DNA of 55,659 nt. It comes from Synergistaceae bacterium. GTDB taxonomy: Bacteria; Synergistota; Synergistia; Synergistales; Thermovirgaceae. Every line of letters begins with the position of its first letter. The first letter of the stretch is position 1. Below the pieces are notes generated by a model. That model saw only the letters and a list, made by a program, of their open reading frames with translations, ran no database searches and had not been told where the DNA came from. Made by a program: the position numbers and the translations under genes. This document shows positions 4,679 to 53,153 of the stretch, piece after piece. The DNA lies in contig JAAYDT010000060.1 of assembly GCA_012729145.1 (NCBI GenBank), forward strand, positions 1-55,659. Direction: 5' to 3'.

Positions 4679-6070
4679 TCAGCAGAGGATATCCCCGAGG
4701 ACCTCGACAAGCCTGTCGATGTCTCTCATGGTTATCTTCTCGGTGATGCAGAAGAGGGCGCTTTGCCCAAGCTCCGGGAAGTCCTCCGAAAGGTCCTTCC
4801 CCCCGAATATGCCTCTTGAGAGGAGTTTTTCATTAATCTCCCCAACCTTCCTGCCGGTCCTGGTAAGATCGACCACGAACTCTTTGAAGCAGAACGCCGA
4901 CGGAGTGCTGGTGGACACGCCGGGAATCTCACCAATTACCTTCCTTGCGTAAAGGGAGCGCTGTATGATGACCTTCCCCAGGTCAGCCATTCCCTTAGGA
5001 CCCATGGAGGCTAGATAGACGGCCGCGGCTATTCCCCAGAGGGCCGCGTGGGTACCCACGAACTCCTTGGCGGTCTCTCTGTTGGCGAAGGATGTCCTCT
5101 CCCAGGCAACATCCCCGAAACCCCACTCTTTTCCGCTCGTAGGGGCTATCCCGAAGAGACGGGAGGGGTACTCTTCAACGTATTTCCTGTCGCTTCTGGT
5201 GCATATGAACCCTCCGACCCCTCCGCCATAGTTCATATGTATCCCAAGGGGCTGGATGTCCCCACAGGCTATATCTGCGCCGTACCTTGAGGGGGGCTGT
5301 ATCACACCAAGAGAGGACGGGTCAACGAAGACGACCGTCAGGGCCCCTGCTTCACGGGCCATCCGCGCTATCTTTTCGCCCTGGTCCTCTATCGCTCCCA
5401 GGTAGGAGGGATTCTCGAAATAGACAGCTGCAACGTCGGTTGCAAGTCTGGATCCCAGGTCCTCAAGGTCCAGGAGCCCTGAGTCCCTTTCCCAGCCGAT
5501 GATCTCGACTGACATAACGGGGTCGAGGTAGGTCTGGACAACCCGGAGCCTGTCGGGATTCATGTTGCCCGCCAGCAACGCCTTTTTGCGTCCCGTTATT
5601 CTGGATGCCATCCTGAGGGATGTGCTGGCTGCCTGTGCGCCGTCATAGGTAGGGACGTTGCAGACATCAAAGTCGAGAAGCTCAGCCATCATACTCTGGT
5701 ACTCGAAGAGGGCCTGGAAACGCCCGTGATCTTCGTAGGGTTCCCCCGCATAGGCTGTGAGGAACTCCGACCTTCCGATTATCTCATCGACCACTGCAGG
5801 AATGTGGTGGTCATAGCATCCGGCTCCGAGGAAACTGAGATATTCCCCTGAGGTAATGTTCCTTGACAGGATCCCTTCCACGTGCCTCTTGAGGTCCGCC
5901 TCGGCGGAGAACGGCACGGGAAGGTTCATTCTGCCCTTCATCCTGAGCTCGGCAGGGATGTCTGTCAGCAGTTCGTCGACACTATCCACACCTGTTTCTC
6001 TCAGCATCGCCTCCCGAATCCGCGGTTCCGAATTAGGGATATAGGGATAGACCCTTTTCTTTTCAGCCAT
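4679..6070 (-). CDS. GcvPA-like protein: partner subunit of a divergent glycine-decarboxylase-type P-protein
   Basis: This 463-residue protein aligns with the PA subunit: YIPNSEP near residue 10, SFLGAGCYDHHIPAVVD near residue 79, RSEFLTAY near 100, QALFEYQSMMAEL near 119 and YDGAQAAS near 142. Two stretches that are strongly conserved in glycine decarboxylases differ: AGEPYEDHGRFQ replaces the usual PYQPEISQGTLQ-type segment, and AKEFVGTHAAL (334-344) stands where TSNICTNQAL is expected. It therefore looks like a paralogue with an altered site. The start ATG at 6068-6070 has AGGAGG about 9 bases upstream; the open frame continues to 6145, but those codons overlap the upstream dehydrogenase. 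A 32-base gap separates it from the PB-like gene. Confidence 0.75.
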   Translation of the reverse strand: MAEKKRVYPYIPNSEPRIREAMLRETGVDSVDELLTDIPAELRMKGRMNLPVPFSAEADLKRHVEGILSRNITSGEYLSFLGAGCYDHHIPAVVDEIIGRSEFLTAYAGEPYEDHGRFQALFEYQSMMAELLDFDVCNVPTYDGAQAASTSLRMASRITGRKKALLAGNMNPDRLRVVQTYLDPVMSVEIIGWERDSGLLDLEDLGSRLATDVAAVYFENPSYLGAIEDQGEKIARMAREAGALTVVFVDPSSLGVIQPPSRYGADIACGDIQPLGIHMNYGGGVGGFICTRSDRKYVEEYPSRLFGIAPTSGKEWGFGDVAWERTSFANRETAKEFVGTHAALWGIAAAVYLASMGPKGMADLGKVIIQRSLYARKVIGEIPGVSTSTPSAFCFKEFVVDLTRTGRKVGEINEKLLSRGIFGGKDLSEDFPELGQSALFCITEKITMRDIDRLVEVLGDILC

Positions 6071-47266: not shown

Positions 47267-48994
47267 CTATCGAAGCATCTCAATGAGCTTTTCGGCAACC
47301 TTTTCGACGGGAACCTGAAGCCCACTGTACCAGAGAATACGGTCCTCGATGAGGAACCCCGTCTCCCTCCTGATCAGGTCAGCGAACTGCCCAGTGGCGT
47401 TGCCCTCGACAGCTATGACCCTTTCGGCCTTCTTGAGGTGACCGGCAGTTCCAGGATGAAGCGGGAACACCTGGTCGAAGTGAAGGTGGGCCGTCTCATC
47501 CAACCGGGCCTCCTGCAGGGCTTCCTCAACTATGTGATACATGGACCCCCAGGTCACCACCAGGTTCCTGTAGCTTTCAGGCCCCGAAATAACAGGCTCG
47601 AACACCCTCTCCAGGATGCCCCCCCTCTTCCTCTGCCGCTTGTCAACCATTCGGGGACGGAGTACGAAGTCCTCCTGGACATGTCCCACCTCATCGTGTT
47701 CATGGCTGTCGGTACCGACAAGTCCCTTGCCCAGACCGGGGACACTCCTGGGAGATATGCCGCTCTCAGTGACCTCGTACCTCCTGTAGTCGGCGCCGGA
47801 CTCAACGAGGTGCCTTTCAACATTCAGACCCTTGATTTCGAAGGGGGGAACGTTGTAGAAGGAGTTGAGCAGGTACTGGTCGGTAAGGATGAATACGGGG
47901 ACCTGAAATTCAGCAGCCAGGTTAAAGGCCTCGAAGGTCAGGCGAAATGCCCTTTCCATGCTCCCAGGAGCGAAGACCGCCCGGGGGATGTCGCCGTGGC
48001 CGCAAAACACCGCCAGGTTCAGGTCACCCTGTTCGGTCCTGGTCGCCATACCCGTGGCAGGTCCCGGCCGCTGACCGATATGGAGCACCAAGGGGATCTC
48101 CGTTATGCCCGCAAGGCTGACCCCTTCTGACATCAGGGAGAGGCCGCCCCCGGAGGTGCTCACCATGGCCCTGGCTCCACCGTAGGACGCACCCAGGGCT
48201 ATGTTTATGGCGGCTATCTCGTCCTCTGCCTGCTCCACAGCTACACCGTGGGACCTTGAGTGCCTTGCCATGAAGGTAAGGACTCCCGTGGCCGGGGACA
48301 TCGGGTAGGACGAGATAAGATCGCAACCTCCAGCGAGGGCCCCCAGAGAGACGGCGTCCGATCCGTTGATCATCATCTCCCCGGAAGCTTTCCCTCTCCC
48401 CCTAACCTCGACGGAGACCCTCCCCGAGGTTTCCAGCTCTCTGAAGAGTCCCATCCCCTTTTCAAGGGCCGAAAGGTTGCTGGTGACCACCCCTTCGGAC
48501 TTGGAGGAGAATTTTTCCCTGAGCAACCTTTCGGGGATCTCGGGAGGTATACCCAGCAGTCCCGAAATAAGTCCTGCCGCCACAACGCCGGTAAAGACCG
48601 GCCCCCCTGCTTCTCGCCCCTTCTCCATCAGAGGGACGTGGACGAATGTCCCTCCGGAATCCGAGAGCTCGTCCCTGATCTCTTCGGCATCTCCGAGAAT
48701 AAGGGTCTCCTGGGAGATGCGTCCCCTGATGTTCGCCCTTATCCCCCCGTTGAGGGGCAGCAGAATGTCGATCCTGTCGACAAAGGCTCTCACCCTTTCG
48801 GAGGAGACCCGTATCTCGGTTGAGTTGCTCCCCCCCCTGACCCTTGACATATACTCCCTGCTGGCGAAAACGTTGAAACCGGACTTCCTCAGGGAATCGA
48901 CCAGGATCTCCTCCACCGTCTGGACCCCCTGTCCTGCCGCACCGCACAAAACCAACGACACGTCGCTGTTTCCTTCTGCCGGGAAACGGAACAT
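47267..48994 (-). CDS. 2-oxoacid:acceptor oxidoreductase, fused gamma-alpha subunit
   Basis: A 575-residue fusion: residues about 10-180 are the gamma domain (CGAAGQGVQTVEEIL), and about 200-575 the alpha domain (POR_N pyrimidine-binding, with GSDAVSLGALAGGCDLISSYPMSPATG near 210 and EQAEDEIAAINIALGASYGGARAM). Partner of the beta subunit 11 bases downstream. The ATG at 48994 has GGAGGAG 5 bases upstream; a start at 49009 would overlap the site. No delta ferredoxin gene is adjacent, typical of the two-gene KorAB-like type. Confidence 0.9.
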   Translation of the reverse strand: MFRFPAEGNSDVSLVLCGAAGQGVQTVEEILVDSLRKSGFNVFASREYMSRVRGGSNSTEIRVSSERVRAFVDRIDILLPLNGGIRANIRGRISQETLILGDAEEIRDELSDSGGTFVHVPLMEKGREAGGPVFTGVVAAGLISGLLGIPPEIPERLLREKFSSKSEGVVTSNLSALEKGMGLFRELETSGRVSVEVRGRGKASGEMMINGSDAVSLGALAGGCDLISSYPMSPATGVLTFMARHSRSHGVAVEQAEDEIAAINIALGASYGGARAMVSTSGGGLSLMSEGVSLAGITEIPLVLHIGQRPGPATGMATRTEQGDLNLAVFCGHGDIPRAVFAPGSMERAFRLTFEAFNLAAEFQVPVFILTDQYLLNSFYNVPPFEIKGLNVERHLVESGADYRRYEVTESGISPRSVPGLGKGLVGTDSHEHDEVGHVQEDFVLRPRMVDKRQRKRGGILERVFEPVISGPESYRNLVVTWGSMYHIVEEALQEARLDETAHLHFDQVFPLHPGTAGHLKKAERVIAVEGNATGQFADLIRRETGFLIEDRILWYSGLQVPVEKVAEKLIEMLR

Positions 48995-49080
48995 ACTATC
49001 TCCTCCCAACTTTAAAAAGGAACGAAGTGTTATCTCGCATCAAACATACGGCCATGGGCCTGGGACATTACAGAACTGGC

Positions 49081-51518: not shown

Positions 51519-51556
51519 TTGAGACAAGTATACCCTTTATGGTATATTTACTGCAA
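51519..51556. promoter_or_regulatory. overlapping divergent promoters with a shared palindrome
   Basis: Minus strand: TTGCAG (51551-51556), 18-base spacer, TATACT (51527-51532) for copA. Plus strand: TTGAGA (51519-51524), 17 bases, GTATAT (51542-51547) for the ArsF-like gene. Both embrace a palindrome TATACC-6-GGTATA (51529-51546), similar in outline to CsoR-type copper operators (TACCC-x4-GGGTA), so one regulator could control both directions. Confidence 0.6.
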
Positions 51557-51592
51557 GTTCCCATCATCACTCCAATAAGGTCGGGAGGGGTC

Positions 51593-52084
51593 ATGAACTA
51601 TAAAAAGACCGCAGGGTACCTGATCCTTTTGCTTGCCCTGGCCGGGCTTGTAAATGCTGGCCTTGATATTTACGGCGATATTGCTACTGGAGGGAGAGGA
51701 GACCGGGGTACAGTTACCGCATCGGGGTCAGGCTATCCCGAGGGCCCCTTGGAACTGGTCATCTACTTCTTCGAGGGGAATGCCCCCTGTTCGGTATGCG
51801 AAAGGATAAGGGGCATGACATATGAACTTTTCGAGTCGGACCCTGAAGATCTTTCGCTATTTTCCATAAGGGATGTGAACGTGGAGGAGAAGGGGAACGA
51901 GAGGTATGTTCTGGAGCTTGATCTCTTCTCCACCTCTGTTGTTCTTGCAGAGGAATCAGGGGGCAGGATATTCCGCTGGAAAAATCTTGCCGGTGTCTGG
52001 GACCTGGCCGGAGACAGTGAGGCTTTCAGGGATTACATGCTTCGGGAGATCGAGGCCTTCCGATCGGGAGGTGAGAACCGGTGA
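51593..52084 (+). CDS. ArsF-like thioredoxin-fold protein, membrane anchored
   Basis: A 163-residue protein with an N-terminal membrane segment (about 8-26) and a thioredoxin-like domain: LVIYFFEGNAPCSVCERI with a CxxC redox pair (C61, C64), then TSVVLAEESGGRIFRWKNLAGVWDLAGDSEAFRDYMLREIE. That tail and the CxxC match the family annotated as nitrophenyl nitroreductase subunit ArsF, found beside CcdA-type membrane proteins. Start at the ATG 51593 with GGGAGGGG 3-4 bases upstream. It overlaps the next gene by 4 bases. Confidence 0.65.
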   Translation: MNYKKTAGYLILLLALAGLVNAGLDIYGDIATGGRGDRGTVTASGSGYPEGPLELVIYFFEGNAPCSVCERIRGMTYELFESDPEDLSLFSIRDVNVEEKGNERYVLELDLFSTSVVLAEESGGRIFRWKNLAGVWDLAGDSEAFRDYMLREIEAFRSGGENR

Positions 52085-52761
52085 GCGTACTGACGGTCCT
52101 GTCAGCCCTCTGGCTCGGGGTACTGGCTTCAATAAGCCCCTGCCCGCTGGCAGCGAACATGGCCGCCTTTTCATTCATCCAGAAGGAAGGGCTTTCACCC
52201 CGCAGGGTCCTTGTCTCGGGGTGCCTCTACTCGGCAGGACGCAGCGTGGCTTTTGCCATTGCAGGAGTGATAGTGATCTCGGGGCTTCTGGCAATACCAG
52301 AGGCATCTATCTTCATGCAGCGTCACATGAACAGGATCATTGGCCCCATACTCCTGATAGTGGGCATCTTCGTCCTGGACCTCCTGGAGATCAGAAGGAG
52401 AAGACCCATCGTTGACAGTGTCTCATCAGGGGCCCCCTTCCGCGGCATGGCGGGCTCTTTCTTCATGGGAGTACTCTTTGCCCTTGCCATGTGCCCCGTA
52501 TCGGCCGCCCTCTTCTTCGGCGGACTGATCCCTCTGGCCACAGAGGTAGGGTCCCGGGTCTTCTTCCCGGCCCTCTTCGGCCTCGGGAGCGGACTTCCCG
52601 TAACAATCCTCTCCGTCATCTTTTCCATGGGGACCAGGGCCGTATCCAGGAGCATCGGAACGGTCTATAACTTGCAGAAGGTTATCCAGGCAGCCTCGGG
52701 GGTGCTCCTGATCCTTTTAGGCACTTACTTCTCCCTGACCTCCACCTTCGGGCTGCTCTGA
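52081..52761 (+). CDS. CcdA/ArsG-like membrane thiol-electron transporter
   Basis: A 226-residue membrane protein with six predicted membrane segments. Cysteines C20 in SISPCPLAANM and C139 in FALAMCPVSAALFFGG are the CcdA signature pair, which moves electrons from cytoplasmic thioredoxin across the membrane. Homologues beside ArsF-like proteins are annotated ArsG, an aromatic arsenical permease; I regard a CcdA-like electron-transfer role as at least as likely. GTG start overlapping the ArsF-like stop. Confidence 0.7.
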   Translation: MSVLTVLSALWLGVLASISPCPLAANMAAFSFIQKEGLSPRRVLVSGCLYSAGRSVAFAIAGVIVISGLLAIPEASIFMQRHMNRIIGPILLIVGIFVLDLLEIRRRRPIVDSVSSGAPFRGMAGSFFMGVLFALAMCPVSAALFFGGLIPLATEVGSRVFFPALFGLGSGLPVTILSVIFSMGTRAVSRSIGTVYNLQKVIQAASGVLLILLGTYFSLTSTFGLL

Positions 52762-52883: not shown

Positions 52884-53057
52884 GTGAGGAAGTACAGATG
52901 TCTCCACTGCCGCCACGAGTTCGAAGTGGAGGACCTTTCACCGGGACTCAAGTGCCCGAAGTGCCTCAACCGGTTCGTTCAGCTGGTCGAGGGAGATCCG
53001 GTCAAGGGCAAGTCCTGGGGGAGCAAGAGTTTCAGCGTCCCCAAGAGAGGAGATTGA
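52884..53057 (+). CDS. small zinc-ribbon protein
   Basis: A 57-residue protein with two CxxC pairs: C-L-HC at the start and KCPKC about 15 residues on, forming a four-cysteine zinc ribbon of the rubredoxin/FmdB kind. A short basic tail follows. GTG start at 52884 with GGAGGTG 7 bases upstream; the longer open frame from 52815 would run through the promoter. Role unknown. It has its own promoter and terminator. Confidence 0.65.
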   Translation: MRKYRCLHCRHEFEVEDLSPGLKCPKCLNRFVQLVEGDPVKGKSWGSKSFSVPKRGD

Positions 53058-53094
53058 ATCGGTCAGGACCAGGCTCTTAACCAGAACAGGAAAA

Positions 53095-53114
53095 GGGGGC
53101 GGATATCCGCCCCC
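53095..53114. terminator. bidirectional intrinsic terminator
   Basis: A perfect 20-base palindrome (GGGGGCGGAT and its complement), followed on the plus strand by TTCTTTTTT and on the minus strand by CTTTTCC. It ends the zinc-ribbon gene and faces the cstA end at 53154. Confidence 0.85.
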
Positions 53115-53153
53115 TTCTTTTTTCCATGAAGCCAAGCCAAAACTTTCTGAAGA

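Follow-up and report, generated by a model that had tools for sequence, protein, structure and literature searches.

The closest described relative of the gene pair examined here is the ArsEFG system (profile models NF040494 and NF040495), whose function we take from the title of a work cited in PMC9144182. For copper, the closest precedent for a pairing of an ArsF-like protein with ArsG is ScsB-ScsC, of which the excerpts of PMC8900818 state that ScsC binds Cu(I) and that copper tolerance is modulated by ScsB and ScsC. In L. lactis, the copper-induced proteins with cop boxes include the nitroreductase YtjD/CinD (excerpts of PMC5578118 and PMC8941942). CsoR sites are given as TAC-X9-GTA in the excerpt of PMC3902906, and TTHA1953, which its authors place nearest to CstR, binds TACNNTACNNNNGTANNGTA and was assayed on an oligonucleotide holding TATACC-TT-GGTATA-like arms, according to the excerpts of PMC10318464. 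Among the open-licence literature matches listed, none dealt with ArsF/ArsG in connection with copper or with the copper genes of Thermovirga, which is a weak negative.

We analysed a stretch of 55,659 nucleotides from a member of the Thermovirgaceae (Synergistota), hereafter the window, in which copA-copZ and an arsF-arsG pair diverge from one palindrome. The features are as follows.

51480-49309, minus strand: copA, encoding a P1B ATPase of the Cu+ type, with a single HMA domain at the N terminus and the motifs CPC, YN and MxxSS
49308-49111, minus strand: copZ-like gene, encoding a 65-residue HMA chaperone with MSCGHC (PF00403, 43.2 bits)
51527-51556, minus strand: copA-copZ promoter, with -35 TTGCAG (51556-51551), an 18 bp spacer and -10 TATACT (51532-51527)
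51529-51546, no strand: operator-like palindrome with arms TATACC and GGTATA around CTTTAT (TATACCCTTTATGGTATA), 0 mismatches
51519-51548, plus strand: arsF-arsG promoter, with TTGAGA (51519-51524), an 18 bp spacer and TATATT (51543-51548)
51593-52084, plus strand: arsF-like gene, encoding an N-terminal membrane helix (residues 3-31) and a thioredoxin-like domain with CSVC (C66, C69)
52081-52761, plus strand: arsG-like gene, encoding a membrane protein related to DsbD_TM/CcdA, with invariant C21 and C138

Profile searches identified CopA as a Cu+ P1B ATPase (504.2 bits against the TIGR01511 cut-off of 397), and the copZ-like product, encoded directly 3′ of copA on the minus strand, scored under the NCBIfam CopZ cut-offs. 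The start of copA is probably 51480 and not the long-ORF start at 51594, because GGAGG precedes the former and the matches of homologues begin there. On the plus strand, the arsF-like gene and arsG overlap by 4 bases and keep the two-gene order of ArsEFG. ArsG exceeded the curated NF040495 cut-off (215.4 bits against 200), and the ArsF-like protein carries the expected CxxC but reached only 47.6 bits over residues 56-155 against the NF040494 cut-off of 60, and hence is called ArsF-like only. The locus further differs from ArsEFG in that no arsE was seen alongside the pair in the window, its neighbours being judged by eye, and in that the pair faces copper rather than arsenic genes, across a palindrome common to both sides. 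The pair is flanked by copA and by a zinc-ribbon-like ORF (judged by eye), and the ORF list of the window revealed no ArsR or arsenic gene adjoining it. That small zinc-ribbon-like ORF (52885-53057, plus strand) follows arsG, is kept in family f8 too (L157, 5516-5863) and is itself followed by a strong terminator-like hairpin at 53093-53116.

The two promoters stand face to face and overlap almost wholly within 38 bp. That of arsF-arsG matches the consensus at 10 of 12 positions, with TG ahead of its -10; that of copA-copZ has a -10 with 5 of 6 matches (TATAAT in the relatives G001 and G004) and a weak -35 with 3 of 6 (TTGCGA in several relatives), which was missed by the promoter scan. As the preliminary description had claimed, both -35/-10 pairs span the TATACC-N6-GGTATA palindrome at 51529-51546, each arm of which forms part of one -10, the left arm on the minus strand and the right arm on the plus strand. 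Allowing up to 2 mismatches, TATACCCTTTATGGTATA is the sole match in the window, against 0.36 expected, and the exact 18-mer at 51529-51546 is the single copy in the whole 1.78 Mb genome. Joint control of copA-copZ and arsFG is very probable. MerR/CueR-type control was set aside, the dyad covering the -10 elements and the spacers being 18 bp. In 30 loci, the 230 bases preceding copA contained no CopY-type box (TACA-N1..3-TGTA). The operator recalls that of the L. lactis CopR regulon in being of a type common to copper genes and a nitroreductase, and differs from it in form (cop box TACAnnTGTA against TATACC-N6-GGTATA) and in its regulator, which is of a different or unassigned family. Elsewhere, among the regions preceding copA in L127, L133 and L134, those of two f6 genomes contain a long hairpin with AATACCCCC arms, and that of G038 (L127) contains ATACCC-N5-GGGTAT, close to a classical CsoR site.

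The preliminary description had counted an unconserved neighbourhood among the results that would refute it, and conserved it proved to be. All ten genomes of the window's family have arsFG divergent from copper genes. Eight of them show both copA and copZ there; G001 shows copA, on a short contig that breaks off ahead of copZ, and G005 has copZ only. The exact ATACC-N6-GGTAT lies upstream of arsF in each of the ten, with 0 of 1000 dinucleotide shuffles reaching any of them, and the N6 differs between genera while the palindrome arms hold. In family f8, two genomes (G025 and G040) carry copZ opposite arsF with a one-mismatch site, matched by 4 and 5 of 1000 shuffles. By comparison, no site with one mismatch or fewer lies at the nine ArsF loci without adjoining copper genes (families f7, f9, f5 and f3); the first G056 locus (L045), in which ArsF was not found, was left out of the ArsF alignment and the site comparison, and L035 likewise has no ArsF. 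This conservation strengthens, short of proving, the suggestion of a joint role in copper handling.

The pair itself occurs more widely. ArsG scored at least 179 bits in 20 of 185 Synergistota genomes, a line that we drew ourselves where the scores drop to 80 bits, and 16 exceeded the cut-off. With translations named by eye, G017 and G026 show the order ArsR-like gene, arsF, arsG, ACR3-like gene; in G094 an ArsR-like gene and a permease precede arsF-arsG; at the second G056 locus, an arsenate-reductase-like ORF lies near arsFG; and in f7 arsFG adjoins a 2-oxoacid oxidoreductase gene, as in f1 and f8, but without copper genes. Since arsFG is found in arsenic and other contexts, it has no general link to copper, and it is the site that accompanies copper genes. 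The earlier wording that the pair acts on copper stress "rather than" on arsenicals was accordingly too strong family-wide, homologous pairs standing beside ArsR-, ACR3- or arsenate-reductase-like genes (by eye) in other Synergistota. In the window, the 2-oxoacid oxidoreductase gene (47267-49009, minus strand) adjoins copZ; as it neighbours arsFG in f7 and f8 too, the locus would be old, with copper genes having come or gone in between. In the ArsG tree the copper-linked rows clustered without forming one supported clade (2 changes), so that a single origin of the copper linkage is neither shown nor excluded by it. A plasmid search with ArsG returned 16 records, each below 60% identity.

The two proteins have the marks of a redox pair. 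The CxxC of the ArsF-like protein is invariant in 21 of 21 sequences, and its structure model (pLDDT 76) shows a single membrane helix and, after it, a thioredoxin-like domain that contains the CSVC; the best Foldseek matches are thioredoxins (best E 5e-4, probability 1.00); the VIA Z of about 8 is middling by that tool's grading, and its profile gave weak matches to PDB sequences (best 0.015). A thioredoxin fold is therefore predicted for it. In ArsG, the membrane cysteines C21 and C138 are conserved in 22 of 22 sequences, and its score of 25.2 bits against PF02683 (DsbD_TM) is a near miss, just under the gathering value of 27.1. The ArsG profile matched no PDB sequence up to E 1, and its structure model (pLDDT 39) was useless. 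As judged by analogy, ArsF-like and ArsG fit a transmembrane electron relay of the kind formed by DsbD/CcdA and their partners. Compared by fold, they share with ScsB-ScsC a DsbD-type membrane carrier and an extracytoplasmic thioredoxin-fold partner tied to copper, and differ from it in that ArsG is short and CcdA-like, without DsbD side domains, and the ArsF-like protein is membrane-anchored.

A search of the ten family genomes for further copies of the site gave 39, against 37 for a reversed-pattern control, and a genome-wide excess was rejected; only position and recurrence count. Of the 29 non-cop sites, 13 had promoter location, defined as lying in no ORF and at most 200 bases before the start of one, as did 4 of the 37 sites of the reversed pattern (Fisher p 0.0037). 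The 29 leave out all 10 cop sites, 6 of which scored as promoter, and 3 of the 4 control sites are one repeat in G007. Some cop sites count as coding for the automatic gene caller, whose versions of copA or arsF reach further upstream.

Copper repressors are known to control small Cys-rich copper peptides such as MymT. In the interval from a thiolase-like to an aminotransferase-like gene, 5 of 8 loci read (G000, G002, G004, G005 and G008) encode a Cys-rich peptide some 45 residues long, which is absent from the G003 locus and two G001 pieces. Its site is exact in G000, G004 and G005, has 2 mismatches in G002, and has 1 mismatch with a spacing of 7 in G008, and the GGTAT arm lies at the -10 of its promoter; a similar peptide in G007 has no site. 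The one peptide tested had no Pfam or NCBIfam match, and it may be metallothionein-like. The reading frame is unannotated, with CC, CC, CC and C motifs and a good -10 (L168, L178, L179 and L180-L185; contig C36 of G000, near 5097). A nitroreductase-family gene (PF00881) has the exact site, near its start codon, in 4 of 10 genomes and a site with 2 mismatches in G003 and G008 (spacing 7), nothing useful being found in G001, G006, G007 and G009. By analogy with other copper regulons, peptide and nitroreductase could both belong to a copper regulon. The site also precedes a lytic-transglycosylase-like gene in G000, G002, G005 and G008 (L235, L234, L233 and L174), and, in G006 and G009, Pyr_redox genes. 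The one Pyr_redox protein tested was nearest to TIGR03385 CoA-disulfide reductase, far under its cut-off, and these sites fit thiol or persulfide stress as well as copper, if not better. In G003, G006, G007 and G009 a radical-SAM-like gene has the site at its 3′ end; because the reading frame ends there, these copies were set aside as coding conservation (by eye).

The preliminary description had suggested looking for a CsoR gene elsewhere, and the genome yielded a single CsoR-family gene, a neighbour of rpsB on contig C12 (L001:1456-1770), the product of which passed the Trns_repr_metal domain cut-off (84.5 bits against 22.8) but lacks the copper-sensing His ligand. Comparison with 4adz and 4m1p revealed that both Cys are kept and that Tyr occupies the His column, leaving no Cys-His-Cys set; 7mq3, which we take to be a CstR though its entry labels it CsoR, has Ala in that column. 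None of 15 aligned sequences, read by eye, has His at the CsoR ligand column. The gene is present in 8 of 10 family genomes; its true loss from G001 and G008 was rejected in favour of a probable assembly gap, because the neighbouring rpsB is missing there too. A csoR-like gene beside rpsB, without the His ligand, recurs across the order. Upstream of the csoR-like gene, just after a likely -10, lies a recurring TATACCC-N-GTAT, spaced otherwise than the shared site. The shared site resembles the operators of S. lividans CsoR and TTHA1953 in having a TAC...GTA inverted repeat in a promoter, and differs in spacing and in context, being TAC-N8-GTA without G-tracts, which departs from the type 2 CsoR operator (TAC-X9-GTA with G-tracts) and from the N4 of the TTHA1953 core. 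Because the site fits neither type and the gene's own motif is spaced differently, the CsoR-like protein is a candidate only, though the leading one.

We lean, if only slightly, towards an explanation in which one repressor-type operator would run both divergent operons as a unit. A regulator bound to TATACC-N6-GGTATA would cover both -10 elements and shut both promoters, and an inducing signal, most likely an excess of Cu(I), possibly acting through metal-loaded or oxidised Cys, would release it. Cu(I) would then leave the cytoplasm by way of CopZ and CopA, and the CcdA-like ArsG would carry electrons through the membrane to the ArsF-like protein, anchored there and of thioredoxin fold. The latter may keep extracytoplasmic thiols reduced or hold or reduce the exported copper, a role akin to that proposed for ScsB-ScsC. 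The operator's regulon would be small, extending to the Cys-rich peptide and, in some genomes, to the nitroreductase. With 38 bp common to both promoters, only one of them could be bound by RNA polymerase at a time, so that the operons would be co-induced yet compete. Copper is the probable main signal, and for a contribution of ArsFG to copper tolerance through extracytoplasmic thiol chemistry we see the chances as evenly balanced.

The main rival reading replaces copper by thiol or persulfide stress, with a CstR-like protein controlling a reactive-sulfur or electrophile regulon that would include copA-copZ, arsFG, the nitroreductase and disulfide reductases. It is a tentative possibility, to which the sole CsoR-family protein lends itself, with its two Cys and its Tyr instead of His and with its gene in 8 of 10 family genomes, as do the arms in the oligonucleotide on which the CstR-near TTHA1953 was assayed (excerpts of PMC10318464) and the sites before Pyr_redox genes in G006 and G009. 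Copper genes are, however, the most conserved partners of the site, its N6 spacing is unlike the TTHA1953 core, and the motif of the candidate gene itself is spaced differently.

The copper reading must also be set against a chance association, in which ArsFG is an organoarsenical or arsenite module carried as a passenger opposite copA at an old locus and the site serves copA. ArsG does pass the arsenical permease model, homologous pairs occur with ArsR-/ACR3-like genes in G017 and G026 and, in G094, with an ArsR-like gene and a permease, and the f7 pair lies beside the same oxidoreductase gene with copper genes absent. But arsF has a promoter of its own, with a -10 in the second arm of the conserved site, the genes seen adjoining arsF include neither ArsR nor any arsenic gene, and the arsenic-type loci are without the site, and we consider a passenger improbable. 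Nor does the sharing of 38 bp by both promoters make it at all likely that they form an either-or switch, with the operons expressed under opposite conditions: a symmetric site over both -10 elements predicts joint repression, and the promoter of the Cys-rich peptide has the same arrangement singly.

The reading we favour, control of both operons by one copper-responsive operator, offers testable grounds for questioning the arsenic labels on annotated ArsF/ArsG-type pairs and would tie a CcdA-like carrier to copper efflux. It names a conserved operator with a candidate regulator, and points to a small Cys-rich peptide of no assigned family that may bind metal. More speculatively, and in our view rather doubtfully, ArsFG could be a general membrane thiol-reducing cassette moved among metal stress circuits by promoter exchange, associated with ArsR and arsenic genes in some Synergistota and with TATACC-N6-GGTATA and copA/copZ in the window's family and f8, where the copper version would have a His-less, CstR-like repressor of the CsoR family commanding a copper-and-thiol regulon that includes the new Cys-rich peptide.
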